A stretch of DNA of 64,000 nt, taken from the NCBI GenBank assembly GCA_018268675.1, contig JAFDWB010000005.1, positions 62,001 through 126,000 on the forward strand. Reading direction: 5' to 3'. The translations under genes and the position numbers were made by a program. Below, piece by piece: positions 30,587 to 57,166 of the stretch (position 1 is its first letter; each line of letters starts with the position of its first letter). The notes beneath the pieces were generated by a model that saw only the letters and a list, made by a program, of their open reading frames with translations, was not told the origin of the DNA and searched no databases. Source of the stretch: Actinomycetota bacterium (GTDB lineage: Bacteria; Actinomycetota; Thermoleophilia; Solirubrobacterales; 70-9).

Positions 30587-30615
30587 AGAACCGTCCCGGG
30601 CAGTCTTGGGTCAGA
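30587..30615 (+). promoter_or_regulatory. Regulon promoter site 1
   Basis: AGAACCGT, 13 bases, GGGTCAGA. It lies 40 bases before the ATG of the FAD reductase at 30655, which has its own AAGGAG. One of 13 sites with invariant 13-base spacing in this window. Confidence 0.7.
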
Positions 30616-32175: not shown

Positions 32176-32424
32176 ATGAAGGACGGAGGCGTGGGGGACG
32201 CGGTGGGGTTCTGCCTGCGGCCCGAGCACCTGCGCAGCACGGTGAAGATCGCCGTCGTCGTGGGGACGATCCTCACCGCGATCAACCAGGCCGACGTCAT
32301 CCTCGGCGGCTCCGCGACGACGCTGACCTGGGTGAAGACGGCGCTCAACTACTGCGTGCCCTTCGTCGTCTCCAACCTCGGCCTGCTGGCGGGGAGGCGG
32401 GCCGAGCGCGAACGGGAGCCATAA
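32176..32424 (+). CDS. NrtS-like small membrane protein
   Basis: An 82-residue protein with two hydrophobic helices (TVKIAVVVGTILTAINQADVIL and KTALNYCVPFVVSNLGLLAG) and the conserved-looking start FCLRPEHLRSTVKIA. This matches the NrtS family described as nitrate/nitrite carriers in bacteria that lack larger transporters. It lies 3 bp upstream of a methyltransferase gene. No nitrate reductase is nearby, so the physiological role is open. Confidence 0.7.
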   Translation: MKDGGVGDAVGFCLRPEHLRSTVKIAVVVGTILTAINQADVILGGSATTLTWVKTALNYCVPFVVSNLGLLAGRRAEREREP

Positions 32425-33676: not shown

Positions 33677-33705
33677 TGAATCGTCCACCCGCTTTCTGGG
33701 TCAAT
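33677..33705 (+). promoter_or_regulatory. Regulon promoter site 2
   Basis: TGAATCGT, 13 bases, GGGTCAAT upstream of the YnjB-like gene. An ATG at 33704 overlaps the -10 part and so cannot be the real start; starts at 33716 or 33755 remain. Confidence 0.75.
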
Positions 33706-33754: not shown

Positions 33755-34912
33755 ATGCGGTCGCTGGTGGCCTCGATAGCCCTGGCCGTGGTGCTTGCCG
33801 GCTGCGGCACCGCCACGTCCTCAGCCCCGTCTCCGACCGCCTCCAACTGGTCTCAGGTCCTTGCCGAGGCGAAGGGGCAGACCGTCAACTGGTGGCTCTA
33901 CGGAGGGGACGCGGCGACCAACGCCTTCGTCGAAGACTACGTCGCGCCCGCCGCGGCCAAGCTCGGGGTCACGGTCAAGCGGGTGCCGGTGAGCGACACC
34001 GTGGACGCGGTCGACCGCGTCGTCGCCGAGCGCCGGGCCGGAGAGACCTCCGGAGGCGCGGTCGACCTGATCTGGATCAACGGCGAAAACTTCGTCGAAG
34101 GCAAGGAAGCGGGGCTGTGGCTGAGAAACTGGGCGCAGAAGCTGCCGAACTCACGCTACGTCGATTGGAGCTCGCCGATCATCAACCGCGACTTCCAGGT
34201 GCCGGTGGAAGGCCAGGAGTCCCCCTGGCAGGGGGCCGCCTTCATCTACGGCTACGACTCGGCCGCGGTCGCCTCACCGCCGAGGAGCTTCCCGGCGCTT
34301 CTCGCCTGGGCGAAGGCCCATCCGGGTCGCTTCACCTATCCGGCGCCACCGGACTTCACCGGGGCGGCGTTCGTGCGCCAGGTGATCCAACGCCTCGGCG
34401 GTGTCGCGAAGGGGCTCAGGTTCCTACGGGAACTGAAGCCGTATCAGTTCGAAGGCGGGACCCAGTTCCCGACCTCGATCGACGAACTCGACCAGCTCTT
34501 CGCCAACGGCCAGGTCGACTTCGACATGAGCTACAACGCCAGCTTCCTCAACCTCGGCGTGAAGAAGGGCGAGTTCCCGCCGACGGTGCGGCCGTTCCTG
34601 ATCGGCGGCGCGCTCGAGAACACCTCCTACGTGACCATCCCCGCGGACGCCGCGCATGTCGCCGGGGCCGAGGTGGTGGCCAACCTCCTGCTCGACCCAC
34701 GGCTGCAGGCGAAGATGGCCGACCCGGCGGTGCTCGGCACGCCCTCGGTCCTCGACCCGGCCCGGCTTCCCGCGGCCCGGGCGGCCGCCCTGCGAGGAGC
34801 CGCCTCGCGCAGCCCCTACCTGCTCACCGACCTCGGCAGGCCGCTCGGGGAGCTGCCGGCGACGCGGGACGTGCCGATCGAAGAAGCATGGAAGCGCGAA
34901 GTGCTCCGCTAG
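33755..34912 (+). CDS. YnjB-like ABC transporter substrate-binding lipoprotein
   Basis: A 385-residue lipoprotein (MRSLVASIALAVVLAGCG, lipobox Cys) similar to E. coli YnjB: QTVNWWLYGGDAATNAF, DTVDAVDRVVAERRAG, VDLIWINGENFVEGKEAGL and WAQKLPNSRYVDW are the shared segments. It would bind a solute outside the membrane for the adjacent ATPase and two permeases. The YnjBCD substrate is unknown; thiamine-like and metal-related ligands have been proposed for related proteins. I prefer ATG 33755 because it gives a standard signal peptide; ATG 33716 is only 10 bases from the -10 element and would give a leaderless product with a longer n-region. Regulon site 2 controls it. Confidence 0.85.
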   Translation: MRSLVASIALAVVLAGCGTATSSAPSPTASNWSQVLAEAKGQTVNWWLYGGDAATNAFVEDYVAPAAAKLGVTVKRVPVSDTVDAVDRVVAERRAGETSGGAVDLIWINGENFVEGKEAGLWLRNWAQKLPNSRYVDWSSPIINRDFQVPVEGQESPWQGAAFIYGYDSAAVASPPRSFPALLAWAKAHPGRFTYPAPPDFTGAAFVRQVIQRLGGVAKGLRFLRELKPYQFEGGTQFPTSIDELDQLFANGQVDFDMSYNASFLNLGVKKGEFPPTVRPFLIGGALENTSYVTIPADAAHVAGAEVVANLLLDPRLQAKMADPAVLGTPSVLDPARLPAARAAALRGAASRSPYLLTDLGRPLGELPATRDVPIEEAWKREVLR

Positions 34913-35979
34913 GCGGCCTCGGCTGCCGTGGGCTGGTCGCCGCCCCCGGCGGGTCGCCGGTGCTGCGGGGCGTCGACCTGGACGTCCCGGCCGGGACGCG
35001 GACCGTGCTCGTCGGGCCCTCCGGCGCCGGGAAGACGACGCTGCTGCGGGCGATCTGCGGCCTGCAGGCGATCGAGGCGGGCTCGATCGAGCTGGGCGGG
35101 CGCCGCATCGACCGGCTGCCCGCGTATCGCCGTCGCTGCGCCGTCGTCTTCCAGGAGCCGCGGCTCCTGCCGCACCTCGACGTCGGCGAGAACGTGGCGT
35201 TCGCGCTGCGCGCGGCGGGCGCCCGCCGCGCGGAGCGCCGCGCCCGCGCCCGCGCCCTGCTCACCGAGGTCGGCCTGGACGGCTTCGAGCGGCGGGCGGC
35301 CGACCGGCTCTCCGGCGGCGAGCAGCAGCGAGTCTCTCTCGCCCGCGCCCTCTGCGCGGAACCCGACATCCTCTTGCTGGACGAGCCGATCTCGGCCGTC
35401 GACGCCAACCGCCGTGAGGAGCTGCGCGAGCTGATCGCGAGGCTGCAGGGAGAGCGGGGGCTGACCACCCTCTTCGTCACCCACGACCGCGCCGAGGCGG
35501 CCCAGATGGGCGAGCGCGTCGCGCTCATGCTCGAGGGGCGGATCGTGCAGGAGGACGAGCCGGCGGCGCTCTTCCAGCGCCCCGCCTCGCCGGTGGTCGC
35601 CCGCTTCTTCGGCTCGGCCAACGTCCTCCGCGGCCAGGTGCGCGACGGGCGGATGTCGCTCGGGGGTGTCGAGGTGCCGGTCCCCGGGCCCGACGGCGAG
35701 GCCTGCGTGACGATCAGGCCCGAGCGGGTCCGCCTCGACCCCGCGGGACCGCTCGAGCTCCGGGTGGGCGAGGCGGCCTACACCGGCACCTGGGTGAGGC
35801 TCCGCCTGCGCGGCGAGGGCCTCGGCCTCGAGGCGATGGTCCCCCCGTCGCAGGCCCCGGCGGCGGGCGAGCTGGTGGGGGTCGCCCTGCCGCTGGAGGA
35901 GATCTGGCGGATACCGGACTTCGAGGCCGTGCCGGAGGAAGGCCGCCGCGCGGGCGTCCGGCCGCGGGGCGGGTCATGA
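34888..35979 (+). CDS. ABC transporter ATPase, YnjD-like
   Basis: A 363-residue ABC ATPase: Walker A GPSGAGKTTLL, Q-loop FQEPRLLPHLDV, signature LSGGEQQRVSLARAL, Walker B ILLLDEPISAVD and switch His THDRAEA. A C-terminal TOBE-like beta domain (about residues 245-360; ITIRPERVRL-type segment CVTIRPERVRLDP) is typical of importer ATPases for anions, polyamines or sugars. The ATG at 34888 lies inside the end of the binding-protein gene (25-bp overlap), and its stop overlaps the permease by 4 bp. Confidence 0.88.
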   Translation: MEARSAPLGGLGCRGLVAAPGGSPVLRGVDLDVPAGTRTVLVGPSGAGKTTLLRAICGLQAIEAGSIELGGRRIDRLPAYRRRCAVVFQEPRLLPHLDVGENVAFALRAAGARRAERRARARALLTEVGLDGFERRAADRLSGGEQQRVSLARALCAEPDILLLDEPISAVDANRREELRELIARLQGERGLTTLFVTHDRAEAAQMGERVALMLEGRIVQEDEPAALFQRPASPVVARFFGSANVLRGQVRDGRMSLGGVEVPVPGPDGEACVTIRPERVRLDPAGPLELRVGEAAYTGTWVRLRLRGEGLGLEAMVPPSQAPAAGELVGVALPLEEIWRIPDFEAVPEEGRRAGVRPRGGS

Positions 35980-36830
35980 GGTCGGCGGCCGCGACGGCGC
36001 GGGGCGCCACCCGCCGCGTCCCGCCCGACCTCCTGCGCCTGGCACCGGCTCTGCTGGTGACGACGCTCCTCTTCGGGGGAGCCCTCCTCGGCGCCCTCAA
36101 ACAGAGCGTCGAGCCGCCTCTCGGCGGCGGGCCCTCGACCTGGTCGCTCGCCTCCTGGCGGGCGGTCTTCGCGGACCCGACCTTCCTCGACGCCCTCTGG
36201 TTCTCGATCCGCCTGGCGGTGATCTCGAGCCTCGCCGCGGCGCTCATCGCCCTGGTGCTCGCCACCCTGCTGCGCTCCCGCGGCCCCGCCCTGAAGACGA
36301 CCTTCTCGCTGCCCGTGACGGTCCCGCACCTGATCGTCGCGGTCCTCGCCGTCGCCTGGCTCGCCCCGGGCGGGATCGCCGAGCGGGCCCTCGGGAGCCT
36401 GCCGATCGGGGTCGTCCACGCGCAGTCGGGGCTGGGGATAGTCCTCGTCTACGTCTACAAGGAGACCCCCTTCCTCGTCCTCCTGCTGCTCTCGGTCATG
36501 GGGCGGACCCTGCGCCGGCGGGAGGAGGCGAGCGCCGTGCTCGGGGCCTCTCCTTCCCAGGTCCTCCGTTGGGTCGTCTGGCCGGCGGTCCGCCGCCCGC
36601 TCGCGGTCGGCTCGATGATCGTCGGCGCCTTCGTCCTCGGCGCCTTCGAGGTGCCGCTCGTGCTCGGGCCCAACTACCCGCCCACCCTCGCCACCTACGC
36701 TTACCAGGCGACCCAGACGAGCCCCCTCTCCGGTCAGGGGAAGGCGGCGGCGAGCCTGCTCGTCGCGGCGGCGGCGGCGATCGCCCTGGGCCTCGCCGCG
36801 CTGGCCCTGGCACGGACCGAAGATGGTTGA
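35976..36830 (+). CDS. ABC transporter permease 1, YnjC-like
   Basis: A 284-residue permease with six predicted membrane helices and the cytoplasmic coupling segment EEASAVLGASPSQVLRWVVWPAVRRPLA, the EAA loop of BPD-type importers. A 4-bp overlap joins it to the ATPase gene, and the second permease starts 8 bp before its stop. YnjC in E. coli is a single fused permease; here the two halves are separate genes. Confidence 0.85.
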   Translation: MRSAAATARGATRRVPPDLLRLAPALLVTTLLFGGALLGALKQSVEPPLGGGPSTWSLASWRAVFADPTFLDALWFSIRLAVISSLAAALIALVLATLLRSRGPALKTTFSLPVTVPHLIVAVLAVAWLAPGGIAERALGSLPIGVVHAQSGLGIVLVYVYKETPFLVLLLLSVMGRTLRRREEASAVLGASPSQVLRWVVWPAVRRPLAVGSMIVGAFVLGAFEVPLVLGPNYPPTLATYAYQATQTSPLSGQGKAAASLLVAAAAAIALGLAALALARTEDG

Positions 36831-37593
36831 GCGGCGCCTGCCGAGGACCGTCGGGACCGTCGCGGTCCTCCTCTTCGCGGCGCCGCTGGCGGTGCTGGTG
36901 GTGCAGGCCTTCGCCGAGGTCTGGCGCTACCCGGCGCTGCTGCCCCAGCGCTGGGGCCTGCGCGGCTTCGAGGTCGCCTTCGAAGGCGACCAGGCCCTGC
37001 AGGCGACGCTCGACTCGTTCGAGGTCGCCCTGATCAGCACCGCCGCCGCGATCCTCCTCGCCTGGCCGGCGGCCCGGGCCCTCGCGCGGGGCCCGGCGCG
37101 CCTGCGCACGGCGGCGATCGTCTTCCTCGCGCTGCCATTGCTGGTACCGCCGCTCGCCACCGGCACCGGCCTGGCCGAGTGGTTCATCCGCCTCGGTCTG
37201 GCCGACACCCGGGTCGGGGTCGCCCTCGCCCACCTCACCGTCGTCCTCCCCTACGTCCTGCTGGTCCTGATCCCGGGCTTCAATCCGCGCCTCCGCGAGC
37301 TGGAGGAGATGGCCGCCAGCCTCGGGATGGGCCCGGTCCGGCGCCTCGTCTCGGTGACCCTGCCGGGGATCCGCGCCGTGCTCGCTGCCGCGGCGCTGCT
37401 CGGCTTCCTCGTCTCCTGGAGCCAGTATGGCAGCTCGCTGGCGGTCGGCGGCGGGCTGCCGATGCTGCCGCTCACCCTGCTCCCCTTCGTCGGCTCGGAC
37501 CCCAACGTCGCCGCCGCCCTCTCGCTGCTCTTCCTGGCGCCCGCCGTCCTCGCCCTGCTGCTCGCCTCGCGTGCGGCCCGGGAGGCCCTGTGA
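36823..37593 (+). CDS. ABC transporter permease 2, YnjC-like
   Basis: A 256-residue permease with about six helices and an EAA loop (ELEEMAASLGMGPVRRLVSVTLPGIRAVLA). It pairs with the upstream permease to form the channel. The ATG at 36823 overlaps the first permease by 8 bp and the stop overlaps the downstream reductase by 4 bp (GTGA), so transporter and reductase are one translational unit. Confidence 0.85.
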   Translation: MVERRLPRTVGTVAVLLFAAPLAVLVVQAFAEVWRYPALLPQRWGLRGFEVAFEGDQALQATLDSFEVALISTAAAILLAWPAARALARGPARLRTAAIVFLALPLLVPPLATGTGLAEWFIRLGLADTRVGVALAHLTVVLPYVLLVLIPGFNPRLRELEEMAASLGMGPVRRLVSVTLPGIRAVLAAAALLGFLVSWSQYGSSLAVGGGLPMLPLTLLPFVGSDPNVAAALSLLFLAPAVLALLLASRAAREAL

Positions 37594-39044
37594 GGCGGCG
37601 GATCGACGGCTACGACCTCGTCGTCCTCGGCGGCGGCACCGGCGGGCTGGTCTCCGCGCTGATCGCCGCCGGGGTCGGGGCCCGCGTCGCCCTGGTCGAG
37701 CGCGACCGCACCGGAGGCGACTGCCTCTGGACCGGCTGCGTGCCCAGCAAGAGCCTCCTCGCCGCCGCCGGCCTCGCCCACCGCATGCGCCACGCCGACG
37801 CCGTCGGCCTCGCGCCGGTCGAGCCCGCGATCGACTTCTCTCGCGTCATGGGGCACGTCAGGAGTGCGATCGGCGCGATCGAGCAGCAGGACTCGCCGGG
37901 GCGACTGCGCGCCGCCGGGGTCGAGGTGATCGCCGGGGAGGGTCGCTTCTCCGGCCCCGGCCAGCTCGAGGTCGGGGGTCGCCTGCTGCGCTTCCGCGCC
38001 GCGATAATCGCCACCGGCTCGGAGCCGCGACTGCCCACGCTCGAGGGACTGGCGGCGGCGGGCCCGCTCACCAGCGACACGATCTGGGATCTGGACGGGC
38101 TCCCCGCCCGGCTCGTCGTCCTCGGCGGCGGGCCGGTCGCATGCGAGCTCGGGCAGGCGTTCGGACGGCTCGGCTCGCGGGTGACGATCGTCGAGCAGGC
38201 CGCGCGGCTCCTGACCAGGGAGGAGCCACGGGCGGGCGACCTGGTCGCGACGAGACTCGCCGCGGAGGGTGCCGACGTCCGGCTCGGCGCCCACGCGGTC
38301 GCGGTCGAGGACGGCGCGCTCGTCCTCGCCGACGGACACCGGATCCCCTTCGACCGCCTGCTCGTCGCGGTCGGGCGCTCGCCGCGGAGCGTGGGCCTCG
38401 GGCTCGAGACCGTGGGCGTCGCGCTCGACGGCGAGGGCGCGGTCGAGGTCGACCGGAGGCTGCGGACCAGCGCCCGAGGCATCTACGCGGTCGGCGACGT
38501 CACCGGTCTCCTGCCGTTCACCCACGTGGCCGCCCACCACGCGCGGGTGGCCACGCCCAACGCCCTCTTCCACGCCCGCACCCGCGTCGGCGAGGCGCTG
38601 CCGTGGGCCACCTTCACCGACCCCGAGGTCGGCCGTGTCGGGCTGACCGAGGAGCAGGCGCGGCACCGCTGGGGCGCCAAGGCGGTGGTCGTCGAATCCG
38701 ACCACGGGCCCGACCGGGCGATCACCGCCGGCGAGCCGGGTGGCTTCGTGAAGCTCGTCGGCGATCCTCGGGGCACCCTCGTGGGAGCGACGGTGGTGGG
38801 ACCCGCCGCCGGCGAGACCGTGGCCGGGCTAGCCGTCCTGCTGGCGCGGCGGGCGAGGATCGAGGATGTCTCCCGCACGGTGCAGCCCTACCCGACCTTC
38901 TCCGAAGCGCCGGCCCGGGCGGCCGACGCCCACCTCGCCTCGCGTTACTCCAGGCGTCCGATCAGGGCGCTCTCGCGGGCCGCGCTCGCTCTGCTCCGCC
39001 GGGTCGATCGGCCGCGATCGGAGAATCCGCCGGAGGGCCGGTAG
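37590..39044 (+). CDS. Mercuric-reductase-like FAD disulfide reductase
   Basis: A 484-residue flavoprotein beginning with GTG. FAD motif GGGTGGLVSALIAA, redox pair in GGDCLWTGCVPSKSLL (Cys 45 and 50), NAD(P) motif GGGPVACELGQAFGRLGS, GDVTGLLPFTHVAAHHA and C-terminal VQPYPTFSEAP. The C-terminal His is replaced by Tyr, as in mercuric reductases, but the MerA C-terminal Cys pair and the MerR-type N-terminal metal domain are absent. It is the last gene of the YnjBCD-like operon, so it probably reduces something the transporter imports. A short Arg-rich tail ends the protein. Confidence 0.86.
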   Translation: MRRRIDGYDLVVLGGGTGGLVSALIAAGVGARVALVERDRTGGDCLWTGCVPSKSLLAAAGLAHRMRHADAVGLAPVEPAIDFSRVMGHVRSAIGAIEQQDSPGRLRAAGVEVIAGEGRFSGPGQLEVGGRLLRFRAAIIATGSEPRLPTLEGLAAAGPLTSDTIWDLDGLPARLVVLGGGPVACELGQAFGRLGSRVTIVEQAARLLTREEPRAGDLVATRLAAEGADVRLGAHAVAVEDGALVLADGHRIPFDRLLVAVGRSPRSVGLGLETVGVALDGEGAVEVDRRLRTSARGIYAVGDVTGLLPFTHVAAHHARVATPNALFHARTRVGEALPWATFTDPEVGRVGLTEEQARHRWGAKAVVVESDHGPDRAITAGEPGGFVKLVGDPRGTLVGATVVGPAAGETVAGLAVLLARRARIEDVSRTVQPYPTFSEAPARAADAHLASRYSRRPIRALSRAALALLRRVDRPRSENPPEGR

Positions 39045-39140: not shown

Positions 39141-39169
39141 TGAATCGAATGGCCGCCGCCACGGTCAGA
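39141..39169 (+). promoter_or_regulatory. Regulon promoter site 3
   Basis: TGAATCGA, 13 bases, CGGTCAGA. It is 36 bases ahead of ATG 39206, which has an AGAGGAGGG ribosome site. Confidence 0.7.
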
Positions 39170-44564: not shown

Positions 44565-44593
44565 TGAACCGATTCCCGCGACCCGGGGTCACA
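44565..44593 (+). promoter_or_regulatory. Regulon promoter site 4, ahead of an ECF sigma gene
   Basis: TGAACCGA, 13 bases, GGGTCACA. It precedes the sigma/anti-sigma pair at 44680, so the sigma factor probably transcribes its own gene. Confidence 0.72.
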
Positions 44594-44679
44594 CCAGCGT
44601 GGAAACCATCAGTTGGAGCACCGTGCCCGCCGAGTCATTGCTTCGGTCCCGTCGGCGCGGGCCTGCGATATTTGCCCCG

Positions 44680-45255
44680 ATGCGGCCGATGCCCTCCGAG
44701 GACGAGCAGCAGCTTGTGGTTCGCGCGAAGGCCGGGGAGGAGCGCGCCTTCGAGGAGTTGGTGCGCAGCCATGCCGACCACCTCTACGCGGTCGTCGTGC
44801 GGTTGCTCGGCGACCGCCATGAAGCCGAGGAGGTGACCCAGGAGACCTTCCTGCGCGCGTGGCGGGGGATCGGCTCCTTCGAGGGCAACTCGCGCTTTTT
44901 CACCTGGCTCTACCGGATCGGCATCAACGAGGCCAGGCGCCGCGCCGCGCGCAACACGATGACGTTCAGGGCCAGCCCGGTCGAGGAGCGCCCCGGCACC
45001 GAGCCGACGGACCTCAGCGAGGCGCCGGAGCCGACCGCGACCCGACATGAGCTTCAGGTCGTGCTGGAAGAGGCGATCGCGGCGCTCGACCCCGACTACC
45101 GGGCGCCCCTCGTCCTCCGCGACGTCGAGGGGCTCAGCACGTCCGAGGCGGCGGAGGCGATGGGGCTGGGCGAGGCGGCGTTCAAGAGCCGGCTGCACCG
45201 CGCCCGACTCGCCGTCCGCAAGGCCGTCGACGAGTACCTTGGGGAGGAAAGATGA
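44680..45255 (+). CDS. ECF sigma factor A
   Basis: A 191-residue sigma factor with regions 2 and 4 only. Region 2: EELVRSHADHLYAVVVRLLGDRHEAEEVTQETFLRAWRGIGSF is the conserved part, with FFTWLYRIGINEARRRA. Region 4: LDPDYRAPLVLRDVEGLSTSEAAEAMGLGEAAFKSRLHRARLAVRKAV. ATG 44680 or 44689 are both possible and a GTG at 44599 would add 27 unconserved residues. The gene overlaps its anti-sigma by 4 bp. It resembles the second sigma at 49618 closely (same FFTWLYRIG-NEARRRA and AFKSRLHRAR), so both may read the same promoters. Confidence 0.9.
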   Translation: MRPMPSEDEQQLVVRAKAGEERAFEELVRSHADHLYAVVVRLLGDRHEAEEVTQETFLRAWRGIGSFEGNSRFFTWLYRIGINEARRRAARNTMTFRASPVEERPGTEPTDLSEAPEPTATRHELQVVLEEAIAALDPDYRAPLVLRDVEGLSTSEAAEAMGLGEAAFKSRLHRARLAVRKAVDEYLGEER

Positions 45256-45515
45256 TCGGCAGGATGACCCGGCGCTACCGCTTCATGCGCGACCACATGT
45301 GGGCGAGGGGGCGATTCTCCGCCTACCTCGACCACGAACTCGACGACGCCGAAAGCGCGCGGCTCGAGCGCCACGCCCACCTTTGCCCCGGGTGCCACCG
45401 GATGCTGGAGACGCTGATCAAGACCCTCGAGGGCCTGCGCGGTCTCTCGGGTGCGAGCCGGCCGCCCAGCGACCTCGCCGACTCGGTGATCGAGCGCATC
45501 CGCAAAGAGCCTTGA
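45252..45515 (+). CDS. Anti-sigma factor with zinc finger, soluble
   Basis: An 87-residue zf-HC2-type anti-sigma: FSAYLDHELDDAESARLERHAHLCPGCHRMLE holds the H-x3-C-x2-C zinc motif that clamps ECF sigmas. It has no membrane span, so release is probably a cytoplasmic event, for example oxidation of the zinc Cys pair. ATG 45252 overlaps the sigma gene stop by 4 bp. Confidence 0.87.
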   Translation: MIGRMTRRYRFMRDHMWARGRFSAYLDHELDDAESARLERHAHLCPGCHRMLETLIKTLEGLRGLSGASRPPSDLADSVIERIRKEP

Positions 45516-45538
45516 GCTCGGCCCGCCCCGCTGTCAGG

Positions 45539-46285
45539 CTAGACCTCGTTGAAGAAGTCGAGTCCGGCGCCTTCGAGCAGATGCTGGGCCCAGATGTTGA
45601 GGCGGAACAACTCGCCGGTCCAGATCAACACGCCCATCGCGACCAGCGTCAGGCCGCCGGCCACCATCAGCGCTCCGTAGTGGCGCTTCACCAGGGCGGT
45701 GGCACTGCTCAGCCGGGCGAAGGCCAGGGCGCTGGCCAGGAAGGGAATCCCGAGCCCCGCCGAGTAGACGGCGAGCAGGAAGGCGGCGTGCCCGGCGGAT
45801 TCGCTCAGCGCCGCGGCGCTGAGGATGGCCCCCAGGGTCGGGCCGACGCAGGGCGTCCAGGCGATCGCGAAGGCGGCGCCGGCGAGGAGCGGGCCGCCGC
45901 TGCCGGCGCGCCGGATCAGACCCTCCACCCGCCACTCGCGGCTCAGCCGCATCGAGTAGCGGGAGCCGACGAAGAGCAGGCCCATCGCGACGATCATCAC
46001 CGCCGCCACCTTCTCGAGCAGGCGACGGTGGTCGCTGAGCGCGTGGCCGAGGCCGGAGGCGCTCAGCCCGAGCAGGATGAAGATCGTCGAGAAGCTGGCG
46101 ATGAAAAGCAGGCTAGGAGCGAGGACGCGGCGCGCGGGGGCGTCTTCGAGCTCGGCCGGGCTGAGCCCGACCACCGCCGCCAGGTAGCCGGGGACGAGCG
46201 GCAGCACGCAGGGCGAGAGGAAGGAGACGAGGCCAGCCGCGAGCGCCGCGAAGAGGCCGACCCCGGCGGCCGGATCGGCGCTCAT
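45539..46285 (-). CDS. ccdA: CcdA-like thiol-transfer membrane protein
   Basis: A 248-residue membrane protein with about six helices and two conserved Cys in hydrophobic surroundings (SFLSPCVLPLVPGYL and IAWTPCVGPTLGAILSAAALSESAG region). These pass electrons from cytoplasmic thioredoxin to an external thioredoxin. Its ATG overlaps the TlpA-like gene's stop by 4 bp, the usual pairing. It ends near the convergent anti-sigma gene with only 23 bp between. Confidence 0.9.
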   Translation of the reverse strand: MSADPAAGVGLFAALAAGLVSFLSPCVLPLVPGYLAAVVGLSPAELEDAPARRVLAPSLLFIASFSTIFILLGLSASGLGHALSDHRRLLEKVAAVMIVAMGLLFVGSRYSMRLSREWRVEGLIRRAGSGGPLLAGAAFAIAWTPCVGPTLGAILSAAALSESAGHAAFLLAVYSAGLGIPFLASALAFARLSSATALVKRHYGALMVAGGLTLVAMGVLIWTGELFRLNIWAQHLLEGAGLDFFNEV

Positions 46286-46932
46286 CCCCGCAGCGCGTAG
46301 CGTTCGATGTCGCCGCGCAGTTGCGCGAGCGTCACATAGCCGCCCTCCCGCACGTAGGTGCGTTCGCCGTGGCGGTCGAAGTAGATCGTCGTCGGCCAGC
46401 CCGCCCCGGCGCCGAGCGAGGCCGCCTGCGAGGCATCCTGGTCGAAGATACTCGGGTAGGTGACCGGGTATTCCTTGAGGAATTCTTCGGCGCTGCCGCG
46501 TTCGTCCTGGGAGTCGAGGCCGACGAACGCGACCTTCCCGCGCAGTTGCCTGGAGAGCTGCTGGAAGAGGGGGAACTCATCGCGGCAGTTCGGGCACCAG
46601 GAGGCCCATTGGTTGACGACGACCGGGATCCCGCGCAGTTCTTCCAGCTTCTGTCCGATCGAGCCGTCGATCACCTGGTTCGCCTCTTTTTCGTTGGCGG
46701 CGAGGCGTCTGGGTACCGAGCGCAGCTCGGCCTTGGTCAGGGGAGCGGCGGAACCCGACGATCCTCCGCCGCCGGCACCGCCCGCGGCGGCGAGCGCGAT
46801 CAGTCCGGCCGCGACCAGGACGGCGGCGACCGCCGCGAGCGCCGTCAGCCGCCCGCGGCCGGCGCCATGCGGCTCGGCGCGCTCGCTCCGCTCCTCGCGG
46901 AGCCGATCTCGTCTTGCCCGCCTACCCGACAT
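46282..46932 (-). CDS. TlpA/ResA-like thioredoxin, membrane-anchored
   Basis: A 216-residue extracytoplasmic thiol oxidoreductase. A basic start and one helix (LTALAAVAAVLVAAGLIALAAAGG) anchor it, then the TlpA fold carries WASWCPNCRDEFPLFQQL, SIFDQDASQAASLGAG and a cis-Pro segment GWPTTIYFDRHG. It should receive electrons from CcdA and reduce disulfides or haem-ligation Cys outside the membrane. I choose ATG 46932, which lies six bases past the -10 part of regulon site 5, so the message is probably leaderless; an ATG at 46968 would overlap the promoter. Confidence 0.88.
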   Translation of the reverse strand: MSGRRARRDRLREERSERAEPHGAGRGRLTALAAVAAVLVAAGLIALAAAGGAGGGGSSGSAAPLTKAELRSVPRRLAANEKEANQVIDGSIGQKLEELRGIPVVVNQWASWCPNCRDEFPLFQQLSRQLRGKVAFVGLDSQDERGSAEEFLKEYPVTYPSIFDQDASQAASLGAGAGWPTTIYFDRHGERTYVREGGYVTLAQLRGDIERYALRG

Positions 46933-46938
46933 CGACCC

Positions 46939-46967
46939 TTGGACCCACGAGCGCGCAGAACGATTCA
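46939..46967 (-). promoter_or_regulatory. Regulon promoter site 5
   Basis: On the minus strand TGAATCGT, 13 bases, GGGTCCAA, reading into the TlpA/CcdA genes. Its upstream half overlaps the stop codon of the universal stress gene, so TlpA/CcdA have their own promoter inside that operon. Confidence 0.78.
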
Positions 46968-47531
46968 AGGATCAGCGCGGACCACCGCCCGCCTTGCGGC
47001 GGCTGAATCGTCGAGGGTCGAGGTGACTCCCTGACCGCGACAGCGCGACCCGCCTCCGTGGCCCGGTGCCGCTGGCGCGACGATGACCCGCCATCCGCCC
47101 CCGTCGCGGAGTCGCTCGGCGAGCGGCGTGGCGAGGAGGCGTCGAATCCCTTCGACCCGATCGCGGGGCAGGACGATGACATCGGCACCACCGCGCTCGG
47201 CGGCGCGGGCGATTGATCCCGCCGCGGGGCCCACCGCGAGGGAGTACTCGACCGCCACGTCTGAGGCGATGATGCGGGCCGCCTCGCGAAGTTGCCCTCT
47301 GGCCCTCGACAGCAACCCCCGATTCCAGCTCGCGGCCATCTGCCGGCAGCGCGTGCAACCGACGTCGGTCGGCTCGTACGTCACCACGCAGACCACGCTC
47401 AGAGGTACCCCGAGGTCACGGGCCAGGGCGACGGCGTGGGACAGCGCCGCCCGACCCCTTCGCGTCGACCGGTAGCTGACCAGGACCCTCCGCACCGGTC
47501 CGGGGCTCGGGTCCTTCGCCAGGGGAGTCAT
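46965..47531 (-). CDS. Universal stress protein with CxxC insert, copy 1
   Basis: A 188-residue UspA-like protein: VRRVLVSYRSTRRGRAALSHAVALARDLGVPLSVVCVV, then a CTRC insertion (EPTDVGCTRCRQMAASW), ADVIVLPRDR and GGGWRVIVAPAAPG. The nucleotide-binding glycine motif is degenerate. The CxxC insert is shared with copy 2 at 52189 and could sense redox state or zinc. ATG 47531 is eight bases from the -10 part of site 6, so the transcript is near-leaderless. Confidence 0.82.
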   Translation of the reverse strand: MTPLAKDPSPGPVRRVLVSYRSTRRGRAALSHAVALARDLGVPLSVVCVVTYEPTDVGCTRCRQMAASWNRGLLSRARGQLREAARIIASDVAVEYSLAVGPAAGSIARAAERGGADVIVLPRDRVEGIRRLLATPLAERLRDGGGWRVIVAPAAPGHGGGSRCRGQGVTSTLDDSAAARRAVVRADP

Positions 47532-47539
47532 GCATCGAG

Positions 47540-47568
47540 TCAGACCCTCGCCGGTCGCCCAGGATTCA
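47540..47568 (-). promoter_or_regulatory. Regulon promoter site 6
   Basis: On the minus strand TGAATCCT, 13 bases, GGGTCTGA, reading into the universal stress gene. It is divergent from site 7, 51 bp away. Confidence 0.75.
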
Positions 47569-47619
47569 CGCCGAGGCGCGGGTCCGCCCGCGGCGACCGC
47601 GGGCCGAGCGCACCCGATG

Positions 47620-47648
47620 TGAACCGGAGCAGAGTCCCTGGGGTCCAA
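47620..47648 (+). promoter_or_regulatory. Regulon promoter site 7
   Basis: TGAACCGG, 13 bases, GGGTCCAA, five bases before the ATG of the radical-SAM gene at 47654, so transcription would begin at or near the A of the ATG. Confidence 0.78.
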
Positions 47649-47653
47649 CCGAC

Positions 47654-49054
47654 ATGAGCTCACGCATCATCGAATGGCTGCGCGCCCTCGAGCGCGCGAC
47701 GCGTCCCGAGCATCCGGATCTGACGGCGGCCCTCGCCCGGCGATGGGAGGAGCTGCCCGAGGGCGTGCGGACGCCGAACCAGATGCTCGGGCGGAGGACC
47801 GCGGGGTGCGAGGGCACCCAGGGCGTCTTCCCCGCCTGCAACCTCGCCTGCACGCCCTGCTACCACTCGCGCGAGGCCAACCGGGTGCGGGTCGACGGCG
47901 GGCACACCGTGGCCGAGGTCGACGCCCAGATGCGGCTGGCGCGCGAGCTGCACGGACCCTCCCAGCACGCGCAGCTGATCGGCGGCGAGGTGACGCTGCT
48001 TGGGCCCGAGGCGCACGCCGCCGCGCTCGAGGCGATGATCCGCCACGGTCGCAAGCCGATGTCGATGAGCCACGGCGACTTCGACTACGACTACCTCGAG
48101 GCGCTGGCGCTCGACCCGCGGACGGGGCGGCCCCGCTTCCGCCACCTCAGCTTCGCCGGGCACTTCGACTCCACCATGCACGGCCGCCACGGGATCAGGC
48201 GGGTGAGAAGCGAGTCGGAGCTGAACCCGCACCGCAGGCGCTTCTGCGAGATGTTCGAGCGACTGCGCCGCGAGCACGGGATCACCAGCTACCTGGCGCA
48301 CAGCATGACGGTGACGCCGCGTAACCTCGACCAGGTCGCCGACGTGATCCGCGACTGCCGCGACTACGGCTTCCGCATGTTCACCTTCCAGCCCGCCGCC
48401 TACCTCGGCAATCCCTCGCGCTGGAAGGAGAAGTACCGCGCCTTCGGCGACGAGGACGTCTGGCGCGAGGTCGAGCGCGGCGCCGGCGGGCGGTTGCACT
48501 GGCGGGCGCTGCAGTTCGGCGACCCGCGCTGCAACCGCACCGCCTACGGCGGCTACCTCGGCGGGCGCTACTGGCCGCTGCTCGACGAAGACGACCCGCG
48601 CGAACTGCGCATGCGCGACAGCTTCATCGCAGCCTTCGGCGGCGGTCTCGACAAGGACGGGCCGCCCTCGGTCCTGGCACTGCGGTGCGCGCGCGCCATC
48701 GCCCGCGAGCCGCGACTGCTGCCACGCGCGGTCGGCTTCACGGGCCGGCTCCTCGGCCGCATGGGCGCTCCGACCGCACTCGCCCGCGGGCGGCCGCGGC
48801 CGGTGACCTTCGCGATGCACAGCTTCATGGACGCGCGGGTCGTGCGTCCGGCCTGGGAGGCGCTCGAGCGTGGCGACGTCGCCGAGGAGCCGGAGGCCCG
48901 GGCCGCACAGGAGCGACTGCGGGCCTGCATGTACGGGATGGCCCATCCCGAGGAGGGGCGGATGGTTCCAGCCTGCGTGCAGCACTCGGTGCTCGACCCG
49001 GAGCAGAACGCGCGGCTCGCCGAGCTGCTCCCGCGCCGCGACGGCGCGGCCTGA
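47654..49054 (+). CDS. Radical SAM protein
   Basis: A 466-residue protein with a C-x3-C-x2-C iron-sulfur motif (ACNLACTPCYHSREANRV) near residue 75 and a TIM-barrel-like continuation (QLIGGEVTLLGPEAHAAALEAM as the GGE-like strand, TSYLAHSMTVTPRNLDQVADVI, FRMFTFQPAAYLG). Such enzymes cleave SAM to make a radical and modify peptides, nucleic acids or lipids. The C-terminal 150 residues, with several His/Cys (CMYGMAHPEEGRMVPAC) hint at a further cluster. No peptide substrate gene is visible beside it. It is monocistronic and near-leaderless under regulon site 7. Confidence 0.82.
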   Translation: MSSRIIEWLRALERATRPEHPDLTAALARRWEELPEGVRTPNQMLGRRTAGCEGTQGVFPACNLACTPCYHSREANRVRVDGGHTVAEVDAQMRLARELHGPSQHAQLIGGEVTLLGPEAHAAALEAMIRHGRKPMSMSHGDFDYDYLEALALDPRTGRPRFRHLSFAGHFDSTMHGRHGIRRVRSESELNPHRRRFCEMFERLRREHGITSYLAHSMTVTPRNLDQVADVIRDCRDYGFRMFTFQPAAYLGNPSRWKEKYRAFGDEDVWREVERGAGGRLHWRALQFGDPRCNRTAYGGYLGGRYWPLLDEDDPRELRMRDSFIAAFGGGLDKDGPPSVLALRCARAIAREPRLLPRAVGFTGRLLGRMGAPTALARGRPRPVTFAMHSFMDARVVRPAWEALERGDVAEEPEARAAQERLRACMYGMAHPEEGRMVPACVQHSVLDPEQNARLAELLPRRDGAA

Positions 49055-49081
49055 AGGGCGACACCGAGCGGTCGCACGCCG

Positions 49082-49110
49082 CGAATCGTTCCTACCGAGC
49101 GTGGGTCTGA
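49082..49110 (+). promoter_or_regulatory. Regulon promoter site 8
   Basis: CGAATCGT, 13 bases, GGGTCTGA. It is upstream of the glutaredoxin-sigma-anti-sigma-hydrolase operon. A GTG-initiated 10-codon leader frame starts at 49114, overlapping the next start region; it may be incidental. Confidence 0.76.
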
Positions 49111-49129
49111 ACTGTGGAGCTGGTTTCGG

Positions 49130-49621
49130 ATGCCAACCGGAGATGACCTACGCGGCAGCGAACGGGGCGGCGATCGCCGACGAGCGCGCGTCACCGTCTT
49201 CACGCTGCCCGGCTGCTGGCACTGCCACCGTGCCCGGCGACTGCTCGAGCGCCGGGGGATTGTCTATTCGGAGGTCTCGATGGCGGGCATTCCCCACTTC
49301 CGCGTCGTCCTGGTCGAGATGACCGGGGGCACCACCGTGCCGCAGATCCTCTTCGATGACGAGCCGATCGGCGGCGCCTCCGACCTCGCGCGACTCGACC
49401 GGCGCGGCGTCCTGACGGCGCGGCTGGCGGGCGAGCGCTTCCCGCGGCCGGCGCCGATCCGTCGCTTCTCGGTGCGATGCCTCGCCAGATGGGTCCTCGC
49501 GGCGCCGTCTGGGAGAGGCGGTGGCCCGTGGCGCTACCGGACCGAGCTGATCGACCGCGACGGCCGCTCCCTGGGGCCGGCGCCAGGTCGTCCGGGCGGC
49601 CACGCCGCGGCTCCGAGATGA
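49130..49621 (+). CDS. Glutaredoxin-domain protein
   Basis: A 163-residue protein whose first 90 residues are a glutaredoxin: VTVFTLPGCWHCHRARRLLERRGIVYSEV, TTVPQILFDDEPIGGASDLARL. The active CWHC is unusual for the family (CPYC/CGFS) and resembles thioredoxin-like redox relays. The C-terminal 60 residues are basic and unassigned. The stop overlaps the sigma gene by 4 bp, placing a thiol oxidoreductase directly with a sigma factor; it may reduce the anti-sigma's zinc Cys pair and end the response. Confidence 0.82.
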   Translation: MPTGDDLRGSERGGDRRRARVTVFTLPGCWHCHRARRLLERRGIVYSEVSMAGIPHFRVVLVEMTGGTTVPQILFDDEPIGGASDLARLDRRGVLTARLAGERFPRPAPIRRFSVRCLARWVLAAPSGRGGGPWRYRTELIDRDGRSLGPAPGRPGGHAAAPR

Positions 49622-50298
49622 ACACTCCCGGCCACGTCCTGGCGAGAGAGCCCGCCGACGCCGCGGACCCCCGCCGTTATCGTCTGTCCATCGTGGAGCC
49701 CGATCCTCTGCAGAGCGATGCACGGGCACGGGGAGTCGAGGAGCGGCGGCTGCTCGCCCAGGCCCAGGGCGGCGATCTCGGCGCCTTCGAGGAGCTGGTG
49801 CGGATCCACGCGCAGCGCCTCCACGGCGTGCTGCGCGGGCTCTGCGCGAACCCGCACGACGCCGAGGAGGTCGCCCAGGAGGCGTTCCTGCGGGCCTGGC
49901 GCGCGATCGGCCGCTTCGACGGCCGCTCGCAGTTCTTCACCTGGCTCTACCGGATCGGCGTCAACGAGGCCCGGCGCCGCGCCGACCGCGAGGGCGCAAG
50001 ACTGCGGGCGGTGCCGCTCGGCGAGCCACCCTACGAGGAACCTGCGGACCTCAGCGAGGCCCCCGAGCCCCGTGCCGAGCGGCGCGAGCGGCGCCTCGCG
50101 CTGGAATGTGCGGTGCGCGCCCTGCCGATCGAGCAGCGCGCCGCGCTGGTGCTGCGCGACATCGAGGGCCTCTCCACCCGCGAGGCCGCCGAGGTCCTCG
50201 GGCTGAGCGAGCCCGCCTTCAAGAGCCGGCTGCACCGCGCCCGGATGTCGGTCCGCGAGGCGCTCAGAGACGGCGAGATGGAGGAGGGCGGCGCGTGA
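49618..50298 (+). CDS. ECF sigma factor B
   Basis: A 226-residue ECF sigma: region 2 with EELVRIHAQRLHGVLRGLCANPHDAEEVAQEAFLRAWRAIGRFDGRSQFFTWLYRIGVNEARRRAD as the core, region 4 with RALPIEQRAALVLRDIEGLSTREAAEVLGLSEPAFKSRLHRARMSV. Residues 1-48 are a variable extension. It resembles sigma A at 44680 in both DNA-binding regions. ATG 49618 overlaps the glutaredoxin stop by 4 bp; GTG of the anti-sigma overlaps its stop by 4 bp. Confidence 0.9.
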   Translation: MNTPGHVLAREPADAADPRRYRLSIVEPDPLQSDARARGVEERRLLAQAQGGDLGAFEELVRIHAQRLHGVLRGLCANPHDAEEVAQEAFLRAWRAIGRFDGRSQFFTWLYRIGVNEARRRADREGARLRAVPLGEPPYEEPADLSEAPEPRAERRERRLALECAVRALPIEQRAALVLRDIEGLSTREAAEVLGLSEPAFKSRLHRARMSVREALRDGEMEEGGA

Positions 50299-50903
50299 TC
50301 GCGGCCCTGCGCAACCCGTTGGGCCGGCGAGGCCATCCCCGCCCGGAGCTGCTCTCTCGCCATATCGACGGCGAGCTCGAACCTCGCGAGCGCCTGGCGC
50401 TCGAGGCGCACCTCCGCGACTGCCCGCGCTGCCGCGAGCTGCTGGCGTCGCTCTCCGAGACCGTCTCGGAGCTGGGCTCGCTGAGGCGCACCGAGGAGCA
50501 GCCGGACCTGGCCGACTCGATAATCGCGGCGCTCCGGGCGGAGTCCCCGCCGAGCGCCGGCGCGCGGCGGCCGTCGTCGCAGGGCTCGCGCCCCGCGCTC
50601 CTGACGGTGGTGAGGGGCGACGGTCCCCCGCCGACCGTCGAGCCTGCGGCCGCCGGGCGGGCGGCGTGGCTCCGCACGGCGCTGAGGGACTGCGTGCGCC
50701 TCGCCCAGCTGCGCTTCACGGTGCCGCTGGCGATTCTCCTCGGGGTCGCGCTCAGCCTGATCAACCAGGGAGGGATGATCTTCGACGAAGGCCTCACGCT
50801 AACCACCTGCGCGATGTGCGCGCCCAACTTCATCGCCCCGTTCATCGCCCTCAACGTCGGCGCGGCGCTGGCGATCGGAGCGAGAAAGCGGAGAGGATTC
50901 TGA
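50295..50903 (+). CDS. Membrane anti-sigma factor
   Basis: A 202-residue anti-sigma with a zf-HC2 start (LLSRHIDGELEPRERLALEAHLRDCPRCRELLASL; H-x3-C-x2-C), a disordered middle, and one or two C-terminal spans (FTVPLAILLGVALSLINQGG and NFIAPFIALNVGAALAIGA) separated by CAMCAP. The external or intramembrane CxxC could sense oxidation, unlike the soluble anti-sigma at 45252. GTG start at 50295 overlaps the sigma stop. Confidence 0.84.
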   Translation: MIAALRNPLGRRGHPRPELLSRHIDGELEPRERLALEAHLRDCPRCRELLASLSETVSELGSLRRTEEQPDLADSIIAALRAESPPSAGARRPSSQGSRPALLTVVRGDGPPPTVEPAAAGRAAWLRTALRDCVRLAQLRFTVPLAILLGVALSLINQGGMIFDEGLTLTTCAMCAPNFIAPFIALNVGAALAIGARKRRGF

Positions 50904-51851: not shown

Positions 51852-51880
51852 TGAATCGTTGCCGTCCCGGCGCGGTCTGA
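51852..51880 (+). promoter_or_regulatory. Regulon promoter site 9
   Basis: TGAATCGT, 13 bases, CGGTCTGA. A GTG (51885) is four bases downstream and an ATG with AGGAGA is at 51918. Confidence 0.76.
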
Positions 51881-51917
51881 TCGTGTGAAAGAGCAAGTCG
51901 AGCCGAGGAGACGATGG

Positions 51918-52199
51918 ATGAAGGCGATCTGGAACGGCACGGTCCTCGCCGAGAGCGAGGAGACGATCTATCTCGAGGGCAACCATTACTTCCCGCCCGA
52001 GAGCGTCGACCGCCGCTACCTGAAGCCGAGCGCGATGCGCTCGCTCTGCCCCTGGAAGGGCCTCGCCGGCTACTACACCGTGCAGGTCGGAGGCGAGCGA
52101 AACAGCAACGCGGCCTGGACCTACCGCCACCCCTTCCCGTGGATCCGCAGGATCCGCGACCATGTCGCCTTCTGGGGCGGGGTGGAGATCAGGGACTGA
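51918..52199 (+). CDS. DUF427 domain protein, copy 1
   Basis: A 93-residue DUF427 protein: MKAIWNGTVLAESEETIYLEGNHYFPPESV, SLCPWKGLAGYYTVQVGG, AAWTYRHPFPWIRRIRDHVAFWGGVEI. The family is a small beta-barrel of unknown function frequent in actinobacteria. ATG 51918 has a GAGGAGACG site; the in-frame GTG 51885, next to the -10 part of site 9, would add 11 residues as a leaderless product. A second copy follows the FAD reductase at 57217. Its stop overlaps the convergent stress-protein gene by 11 bp. Confidence 0.85.
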   Translation: MKAIWNGTVLAESEETIYLEGNHYFPPESVDRRYLKPSAMRSLCPWKGLAGYYTVQVGGERNSNAAWTYRHPFPWIRRIRDHVAFWGGVEIRD

Positions 52200-52707
52200 C
52201 CTCGACCGGCGCGCCGTTCCGACCCGGCGCGGCCCGGGCGACGATGACCCTCCAGCGTCCCGATTCGCGCAGACCCTCGGCCACGGTGCGGGAGAAGAGG
52301 CGTCGAATTCGACCGCCCGGTTCCCAGGGCAGCACGATCAGGTCGGCGTCGCTACGCTCGGCCGCCCGACCGAGTGCTTCCGCCGGCCGGCCCACGGCGG
52401 CGACATAGTCGACCGTGGCGCCCGGTCGAACCAACCCGGCGGCCTCCCGCAACTCCTCCGCGGCCAATGACCGCATCTCCCGATTCCAGATCACGGCACT
52501 CTGGCGACAGCGTGCGCAGCCGACGTCCGTCGGCTCTTCCGGCACCACGCTGACGACCGTCAGAGGAACGCCGAGGTCGTGCGCCAGGTCGACGGCGTAG
52601 GACAACGCCGCCCGCCCCCGACTCGAGGATCGATAGCTGACGAGGACGCGCCTCACCCGCTCGGACGTGGCCGGCCGGGACTGGCGATCCTCGGTTGCTA
52701 CGGACAT
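52189..52707 (-). CDS. Universal stress protein with CxxC insert, copy 2
   Basis: A 172-residue UspA-like protein: VRRVLVSYRSSSRGRAALSYAVDLAHDLGVPL, the insert EPTDVGCARCRQSAVIWNRE, SDADLIVLPWEPGGRIRRLF and RWRVIVARAAPG. It is clearly a paralogue of the protein at 46965 with the same C-x2-C position. A GGGTCTAA occurs upstream (52725-52732, minus) without a good -35 partner, so it may be a weak member of the regulon. Confidence 0.83.
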   Translation of the reverse strand: MSVATEDRQSRPATSERVRRVLVSYRSSSRGRAALSYAVDLAHDLGVPLTVVSVVPEEPTDVGCARCRQSAVIWNREMRSLAAEELREAAGLVRPGATVDYVAAVGRPAEALGRAAERSDADLIVLPWEPGGRIRRLFSRTVAEGLRESGRWRVIVARAAPGRNGAPVEVSP

Positions 52708-52742
52708 GGTTCCCACGTCGGAGGTTAGACCCGAGCGCATCT

Positions 52743-53084
52743 TCAAGCGACGTCCTCGAGCCCAGGGCCGAGGCCGAGCGCTTCTTCCAGCTCCACCTTG
52801 CGAAGCGCCCCGGTAACCGTGGCGACGGGTTCACCGCCCCGGTACAGGACCAGATAAGGGATCCCCTGAACGCCCGCGCGGACGGCCAACTCAGGCTCGG
52901 AGTCGACATCGACCCTCCCGACCTTCAGCGCACCGCGGCGCTCATCGGCGATTTCCTCGACGATGGGCCCGACGATGCGGCAGGGCCCACACCAGGGCGC
53001 CCAATAGTCGACCAGGACCGGCACCTCGGAGCCCTCGATCTCCCGTGCGAAGTTGCCCTGATCCAGCGTCATCACCTGGCTCAT
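52743..53084 (-). CDS. trxA: Thioredoxin
   Basis: A 113-residue thioredoxin: LVDYWAPWCGPCRIVGPIVEEIA (CGPC), KVGRVDVDSEPELAVRAGVQGIPYLVLYRGG (cis-Pro) and the usual last helix. It reduces cytoplasmic disulfides and could feed CcdA and the redox-controlled anti-sigma factors. ATG 53084 has AAGGAGG; site 10 lies 32 bases upstream. Confidence 0.92.
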   Translation of the reverse strand: MSQVMTLDQGNFAREIEGSEVPVLVDYWAPWCGPCRIVGPIVEEIADERRGALKVGRVDVDSEPELAVRAGVQGIPYLVLYRGGEPVATVTGALRKVELEEALGLGPGLEDVA

Positions 53085-53115: not shown

Positions 53116-53144
53116 TCAGACCCCCGGTGCGCGTCAAGGATTCG
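53116..53144 (-). promoter_or_regulatory. Regulon promoter site 10
   Basis: On the minus strand CGAATCCT, 13 bases, GGGTCTGA, reading into thioredoxin. Confidence 0.74.
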
Positions 53145-53186: not shown

Positions 53187-53215
53187 TGAATCGTTCCTGC
53201 GCTCCGCGGGTCCAA
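53187..53215 (+). promoter_or_regulatory. Regulon promoter site 11
   Basis: TGAATCGT, 13 bases, GGGTCCAA, reading into the lipoprotein-cupredoxin-oxidoreductase operon; divergent from site 10 by 42 bp. Confidence 0.8.
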
Positions 53216-53302
53216 CCCCCAAAGCACCCGATGGCCGGCGCCGTCGCGTTCTCACGCGGCATCGGCCGCCGAGGAGGAAGAACCGATGAGCAGGAGGAGA
53301 CG

Positions 53303-54268: not shown

Positions 54269-54674
54269 GCGCTCCACCCTGGTCGCGGTCGTGATCGGGG
54301 CGCTTGCGCTTGCCACCGCCGTCGCCGGGTGCGGCGGCGGTGGCGGGTCGAGCACCGCCGGCTCCACCACGCCGACTTCCGAAGGCGGCGCGACGAGCCT
54401 CCACATCGCCGCCAACGCAGGCGGCGCGCTCGAATACAACAAGGACGAACTCGAAGCGCCGGCGGGCAAGGTGACGATCACGATGTCGAACCCGTCGAAC
54501 CTCAGCCATAGCGTGGCGATCGAAGGGCCGGGAGTGAACACCGCCGGCGAAGTGGTCGCGCACGGCGGCACCTCGAGCGTCTCGGCCAACCTCAAGCCCG
54601 GCACCTACCACTACTTCTGCACGGTCCCCGGGCACCGCGAGGCGGGCATGGAAGGAACCCTGACGGTGAAGTGA
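54258..54674 (+). CDS. Cupredoxin (plastocyanin-like) lipoprotein
   Basis: A 138-residue lipoprotein (lipobox AVAGCG) with one blue-copper domain: His in LSHSVAIEGPG, then YHYFCTVPGHREAGMEG supplying Cys, His and Met ligands. It should shuttle electrons outside the membrane. It overlaps the upstream lipoprotein gene by 11 bp and the molybdoenzyme start by one base (or as GTGA). Confidence 0.9.
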   Translation: MSVRRSTLVAVVIGALALATAVAGCGGGGGSSTAGSTTPTSEGGATSLHIAANAGGALEYNKDELEAPAGKVTITMSNPSNLSHSVAIEGPGVNTAGEVVAHGGTSSVSANLKPGTYHYFCTVPGHREAGMEGTLTVK

Positions 54675-57000: not shown

Positions 57001-57073
57001 TTCGTCTACCCCCGGATCGTCTGTCTTGCATGCTGTCCCCGGCCCACTGAGGACTCGGCTTTGTCACCGAGCT

Positions 57074-57102
57074 CAGACCTGAGCAGGTGGAAAACGATTC
57101 GG
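57074..57102 (-). promoter_or_regulatory. Regulon promoter site 12
   Basis: On the minus strand CGAATCGT, 13 bases, AGGTCTGA, 74 bases before the flavodoxin-like start. Confidence 0.74.
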
Positions 57103-57137: not shown

Positions 57138-57166
57138 TGAACCGTTTCGCCGCCGCGCCGATCGAA
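57138..57166 (+). promoter_or_regulatory. Regulon promoter site 13, weak -10
   Basis: TGAACCGT, 13 bases, CGATCGAA. The first half is good but the second departs from GGGTC. It is back to back with site 12 and 50 bases ahead of ATG 57217. Confidence 0.5.

Follow-up and report, generated by a model that had tools for sequence, protein, structure and literature searches.

The stretch analysed here (the window, 64,000 nucleotides) comes from a soil-type actinobacterium of the order Solirubrobacterales with a genome of 4.2 Mb, and it carries two pairs of extracytoplasmic function (ECF) sigma factors and zinc anti-sigma proteins, which lie within a group of genes, here termed the island, that share a promoter motif. 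Both pairs are on the forward strand. The first consists of sigma A (SigA), which runs from either a GTG at 44599 or an ATG at 44680 to 45255, and its anti-sigma AntiA (45252-45515); the second consists of sigma B (SigB, 49618-50298) and AntiB (50295-50903). In each pair the anti-sigma gene overlaps its sigma gene. The gene for SigB comes second in a glutaredoxin-SigB-AntiB operon, the first gene of which encodes a glutaredoxin-like protein (49130-49621, forward strand; PF00462, E=2e-13).

Both sigmas contain the Pfam domains Sigma70_r2 and Sigma70_r4_2 without a sigma3 domain and score above the cut-off of the TIGR02937 superfamily, features that define the ECF sigmas (group IV). Over 176 residues they are 60% identical, and no other sigma of the genome comes as close to either, the next following at 29-37%; the original prediction, made from the nucleotide sequence alone, of two look-alike pairs at this place is thereby borne out. 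Both fall below the cut-off of the RpoE equivalog model (121.5 and 110.9 as against 236 bits). Further, neither sigma operon was found to contain an RseB-like gene, and the partners are zf-HC2 proteins, not of the RseA/MucA type. By these sequence measures the two sigmas are RpoE-like but are not members of ECF02/RpoE proper. Comparison of their DNA-contact residues by alignment with AlgU shows that the −35 recognition helix (region 4.2, AlgU positions 168-179) is identical at 11 of 12 positions, with a single A/P difference; the loop L3 that reads the −10 element is GSFEGNSRFF in SigA and GRFDGRSQFF in SigB, and differs at four positions.

The pattern used for the first scan, GAAYCG-N15-GGTC, is present before both sigma operons. 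Genome-wide counts refer to such exact patterns. This loose form has 38 matches in the genome (26 on one strand and 12 on the other; the reversed control gives 12 and 13), ten of them within 27 kb of the window. A weight matrix was then trained solely on 24 sites ahead of genes in other genomes, and applied to the window and to 60 kb of flanking contig. It recovers 13 sites of at least 15 bits in the window (30588-57139), as compared with a mean of 0.35 under a third-order Markov model and two sites in the flank, and all 13 face genes. Positions that played no part in the choice of sites are conserved as well: in the other genomes a T precedes the −35 element in 17 of 24 sites, and an A at +27, which completes a −10 element of the form GGTCyrA, is found in 22 of 24. 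The same A is present in nine of ten island sites and in two of 20 elsewhere (Fisher 3.5e-5). The strict pattern GAAYCGTT-N13-GGTCNNA has five sites in the genome, each of them within the island, and its control has zero matches in ten genomes. The Markov, reversed and flank controls together rule out a chance match in GC-rich DNA as the origin of the motif.

The claim that each sigma is preceded by the same motif is likewise confirmed. The site of the sigA-antiA operon (44566-44593, forward) reads GAACCG-N15-GGTCACA and is an exact match in the genome scan; that of the glutaredoxin-sigB-antiB operon (49083-49110, forward) reads GAATCGTT-N13-GGTCTGA, conforms to the strict pattern, and lies before the glutaredoxin gene, 535 nt upstream of sigB. 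Their matrix scores are 22.6 and 22.5, respectively, and each sigma operon thus has a site for autoregulation. In several genes behind such sites the start codon lies 33-36 nt from the start of the −35 element, and because this leaves no room for a ribosome site, their mRNAs are likely to be leaderless. SigA itself probably starts at GTG 44599 and not at ATG 44680, since the former lies 33 nt past the −35 element, as in the leaderless genes.

The other sites define the remainder of the putative regulon (matrix scores in brackets; strand and spacing served to estimate how far each operon extends). On the forward strand, the first site (30588-30615; 22.3) precedes a flavin adenine dinucleotide (FAD) disulfide-oxidoreductase-like protein at 30655, a stand-alone NrtS of the nitrate/nitrite transporter family (32176-32424, forward; NF038050, 42.5 bits with a cut-off of 25), a methyltransferase and a CDP-alcohol transferase. 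It is followed by sites before an ABC transporter (33755-37593) with a second FAD oxidoreductase at 37590 (33678-33705; 20.8) and before a membrane protein at 39254 (39142-39169; 20.8). Between the two sigma pairs, a reverse-strand site (46939-46966; 26.9) serves a TlpA-like thioredoxin at 46932, with its ATG 34 nt from the −35 element, and a CcdA/DsbD-type transmembrane protein at 46285, both recognised by Pfam; a second (47540-47567, reverse; 20.9) serves a universal stress protein (ATG 47531, end 46965; PF00582); and a third (47621-47648, forward; 23.2) serves a radical SAM protein at 47654, with its ATG 33 nt from the −35 element. The possibility that the CcdA, TlpA, universal stress and radical SAM genes are bystanders was rejected, as on checking they proved to be regulon members. 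Downstream of the second pair, sites precede a DUF427 protein starting at 51885 or 51918 (51853-51880, forward; 22.6; PF04248), a thioredoxin at 53084 (53116-53143, reverse; 17.4; PF00085), an operon of a DUF4399 protein at 53231, a cupredoxin at 54258 and a SoxC/SorA-like, i.e., sulfite-dehydrogenase-like, molybdoenzyme at 54674 (53188-53215, forward; 26.9), an NADPH-dependent FMN reductase at 57000 (57073-57100, reverse; 22.0; PF03358) and, with a weaker score, a third FAD oxidoreductase at 57217 with a DUF427 protein at 58635 (57139-57166, forward; 15.4). With its thioredoxin, glutaredoxin, TlpA-CcdA, three disulfide-reductase-like flavoproteins, sulfite-dehydrogenase-like enzyme, ABC transporter, NrtS and both sigma operons, the regulon has thiol and redox repair as its common thread, inside as well as outside the membrane.

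Some of these genes deserve separate mention. The universal stress protein at 46965-47531 and a second one at 52189-52746, both on the reverse strand, each have a VGCxRCRQ cysteine pair, and the island motif stands before the first only. The radical SAM protein (47654-49054, forward) is kept in the islands of several genomes and reaches the cut-off of no NCBIfam or Pfam model. A PRK11622-type substrate-binding protein and its ABC transporter, as well as a CDP-alcohol transferase (together 33755-39044, forward), accompany the island across genomes.

The two anti-sigmas share 38% identity over 65 residues. AntiA has 87 residues, a zf-HC2 finger (PF13490, E=2.6e-8) with the motif Hx3Cx2C and no transmembrane segment by hydropathy. 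AntiB has 202 residues and comprises a zf-HC2 anti-sigma domain (residues 1-85; PF13490), a linker and a two-helix membrane domain (about residues 126-202) with the cysteine pair C172-A-M-C175. The contrast originally drawn between a soluble AntiA and an AntiB with membrane helices and a CxxC therefore stands, with two transmembrane helices in the latter; the zinc finger, which had been counted as a further distinction, is present in both. Indeed, both show the features of class I zinc anti-sigmas, namely PF13490, Hx3Cx2C and an adjacent ECF gene. A Foldseek search with the predicted anti-sigma domain of AntiB returned RsiW (5wuq, probability 0.99) and RslA (3hug) as best matches with an E of 0.2, which lends moderate support to a class I fold. 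Neither protein reaches the cut-off of the RsrA model TIGR03988 (AntiA 30.3, AntiB 18.1 as against 62.5 bits), and AntiB also falls short of the ChrR model TIGR02451 (29.9 as against 124.5 bits), its C-terminus being NrtS-like and not a cupin.

Two features had escaped the original prediction, namely that the membrane domain of AntiB is NrtS-derived and that the two pairs are separately inherited. The first is seen on comparison with the window's own NrtS, to which the C-terminal 77 residues of AntiB are 37% identical (BLASTP, E=6e-11); profile comparison with hhalign gives 99.1% (E=6e-19). The possibility that this likeness reflects hydrophobicity alone is ruled out by 2000 shuffles that preserve the hydropathy profile, the best of which scores 81 as against 105 for the real pair. 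As it is homologous to NrtS yet beyond the reach of the NrtS hidden Markov model (HMM), the domain is, by sequence, a derived relative and not NrtS proper. Such zf-HC2/NrtS fusions occur in three of 399 sampled genomes of the class, i.e., the present one (G000), G127 and G117; no further fusion was found among 396 genomes sampled from the phylum, and a search for AntiB on plasmids found none. The CxxC is present in all three fusions and in none of eight stand-alone NrtS proteins, lies just ahead of a conserved N-F of the second helix, and is accompanied by many other hairpin residues conserved across all three fusions. An AlphaFold model of AntiB (predicted local distance difference test, pLDDT, 76.8; predicted template modelling score, pTM, 0.42; 15-row alignment) shows the anti-sigma part as four helices, followed by a flexible linker and then a hairpin formed by residues 136-165 and 169-199, with C172 and C175 at its tip. 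Placing the sigma-binding part and the basic C-terminus in the cytoplasm, we infer that the tip faces outward.

The second feature emerges from the relatives. The gene set and motif, together with one sigma of this family, recur within the order at L112 (genome G164), L113 (G058), L118 (G077), L119/L121 (G053), L122 and L123, where the sigma is partnered by a soluble zinc protein, 80-106 residues long and nearly always with only two cysteines. The present island is the only one seen with the soluble and the membrane types of pair together. In the loci retrieved from G127 and G117 the SigB-type pair stands alone, with the motif before the sigma gene in each, in G117 in its strict form and in G127 with a spacing one base longer; because these fusion-type sigmas sit behind the same motif, both sigma lineages fit it. 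In the phylogenetic tree SigB groups with the sigma of G127 (100/99), which belongs to another family of the order, and SigA with that of G077 (93/87). A clade of SigA and SigB is rejected (approximately unbiased test, p-AU 0.018), which rules out duplication of one pair within the genome; for one shared origin of the three fusion-type sigmas the value is 0.31, and this is not rejected. Given these groupings and the rejected joint clade, the sequences describe two separately inherited modules that meet on one promoter set.

Certain other relatives depart from this organisation. In G058, G043, G033 and G125, tblastn matches to anti-sigma-like zinc fingers, several with stop codons, flank the sigma gene on both sides, as if there were a second anti-sigma upstream of the sigma. 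A more distant cluster (L110, L140, L109) has a sigma of roughly 41-46% identity and the same FAD oxidoreductase, radical SAM and DUF427 genes, with the motif missing at most genes, and is probably a sister system with another promoter.

On balance, these features make it fairly probable that the island is a self-contained redox defence built on one kind of ECF promoter, tGAAYCGTT-N12/13-GGTCyrA, and on two RpoE-like ECF sigmas that descend from separate lineages, either of which would transcribe one common set, SigA under a soluble and SigB under a membrane lock. The original prediction had proposed one promoter set driven by a cytoplasmic and an envelope signal; the shared motif set, the autoregulation sites, the near-identity of the DNA-contact residues and the soluble and membrane anti-sigmas agree with it, and the signals themselves are putative. 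Most likely, the two locks would divide the cell between them, the soluble one serving the cytoplasm and the NrtS-type one the membrane or outer face, and one regulon could thus be switched from two compartments. SigA would be held by AntiA, which would answer cytoplasmic stress that damages thiols or zinc, and SigB would stay bound at the membrane until an alteration of the AntiB hairpin releases it. The trigger of AntiB might be oxidation of the CxxC at the extracytoplasmic tip, a reading favoured because the regulon includes TlpA-CcdA and, in G127, sigB-antiB is directly followed by TlpA, or a small oxyanion bound by the NrtS fold, favoured because NrtS is in the regulon; the two are not mutually exclusive. 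Either freed sigma would then induce, among others, the thiol-repair relays of both compartments, namely thioredoxin and glutaredoxin in the cytoplasm and the transfer from CcdA to TlpA across the membrane. These relays would return the sensors to the reduced state and thereby complete a feedback loop. As regards NrtS, we take it to be a transporter, as is also implied by its NCBIfam name. It is conceivable, if rather doubtful, that AntiB is a transporter-derived sensor. Transport would then have ceased to be the main task of its NrtS fold, which would instead report an oxyanion or, via the added CxxC, the extracytoplasmic thiol state, perhaps while complexed with the stand-alone NrtS of the same regulon; the ECF sigma that it sets free would have its whole regulon in common with a second, cytoplasm-reporting sigma.

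Several observations weigh against this interpretation. Loop L3 of the two sigmas differs at four residues. RsrA-type switching needs a third cysteine for the trigger disulfide, and the only cysteines of AntiA are the two of its CxxC; its cysteine set is short of the RsrA type, which makes redox sensing by it uncertain. The zinc of RsiW has been reported as structural only (PMC7406223), and by analogy that of AntiA may be so too. For AntiB, the NrtS HMM NF038050 gives no match to the membrane domain at E<=10, and the gene neighbourhoods of the three fusions differ, with no TlpA adjoining in G117.

Among the alternatives, we consider it possible, though unlikely, that the anti-sigmas are promiscuous, each binding both sigmas, which would yield a stacked or AND-type threshold on the same regulon instead of two independent inputs. 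Of 16 sigma positions in contact with class I anti-sigmas (PMC7406223, Table 2, plus R178), SigA and SigB differ at four (RpoE 31, 35, 135 and 151), two of which are I/V swaps, and the two anti-sigmas closely resemble each other in helix 4 (DLADSVIERIR in AntiA, DLADSIIAALR in AntiB); because of this closeness on both sides, cross-binding could turn an OR into an AND. Further, AntiA and AntiB are mutual best matches among the zinc-motif open reading frames beside the genome's other sigmas. However, anti-sigmas within one ECF group have proved mostly orthogonal in experiment (PMC7406223), and the SigA and SigB lineages have long been apart in the tree. A partitioned regulon, in which each sigma prefers its own subset, e.g., GAAYCGTT sites near SigB and sites without the TT to its left, appears improbable: the TT is missing in all four sites left of 45600 and present in seven of nine to the right (p about 0.02, for a division chosen post hoc), and the L3 loops differ as noted, but the island of G164 has six TT sites with only an A-type sigma and a soluble anti-sigma, and the recognition helices are the same save one residue. 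It seems just as improbable that SigB-AntiB is a guest that landed in the island of SigA, mainly serving its own operon with the membrane domain as only an anchor, for while its sister sigma is in another family and the pairs of G127 and G117 lack a full adjoining island, the sigB operon starts with a glutaredoxin behind the island motif, and the conservation of the CxxC and of many hairpin residues in all three fusions exceeds the needs of a plain anchor.

The two-lock arrangement favoured here may be compared with several known systems. Two ECF sigmas with common targets are already known from the sulfite response of Sinorhizobium meliloti, where the related RpoE1 and RpoE4 (ECF26), each with an anti-sigma, share promoters and autoregulation, and where a sulfite oxidase and a cupredoxin are among the targets (PMC3511301, PMC6180224). 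The island also has a cupredoxin beside its SoxC/SorA-like enzyme, but in S. meliloti the two anti-sigmas are alike, both residing in the membrane and responding to one common signal, whereas here one is soluble and the other NrtS-type, and the promoter type and sigma group are not those of the island. The actinobacterial thiol-stress system SigR-RsrA resembles SigA-AntiA in its soluble Hx3Cx2C zinc anti-sigma and in its thioredoxin/glutaredoxin regulon with feedback logic; the missed RsrA cut-off and the cysteine count of AntiA rule out identity, and the SigR promoter is GGGAAT/GTT, unlike the GAAYCG/GGTCyrA of the island. The island motif resembles the RpoE/AlgU-type motif GAACTT...TCtgA, and AlgU (6in7) is one of the two nearest relatives with a solved structure; the island sigmas differ from that system in their partners and in the equivalog score given above. 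RslA and RsiW, the best fold matches of AntiB, are themselves zinc-containing membrane anti-sigmas, the sensory parts of which are, to our knowledge, unrelated to NrtS; NrtS, in turn, has the homologous two-helix hairpin, but is a stand-alone protein with neither the anti-sigma domain nor the CxxC.

The NrtS-type input, found in AntiB and not in AntiA, and the pairing of a soluble with a membrane lock appear to be new. Such a hairpin is apparently undescribed as an input domain of ECF anti-sigmas, no paper joining NrtS with an anti-sigma having been found in the literature searched, and it ties a poorly understood family of two-helix transporters to signalling. With two separately descended ECF sigmas, two anti-sigmas and 13 promoters, the small motif-defined regulon is also a local test case for OR as against AND logic.

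Outside the island, the window contains a further sigma gene of the ECF41/SigJ type (26554-27536, reverse strand), with region 4 and a SnoaL domain in one frame (26554-27369) and region 2 in another (27360-27536), a break due to a frameshift or an assembly error.

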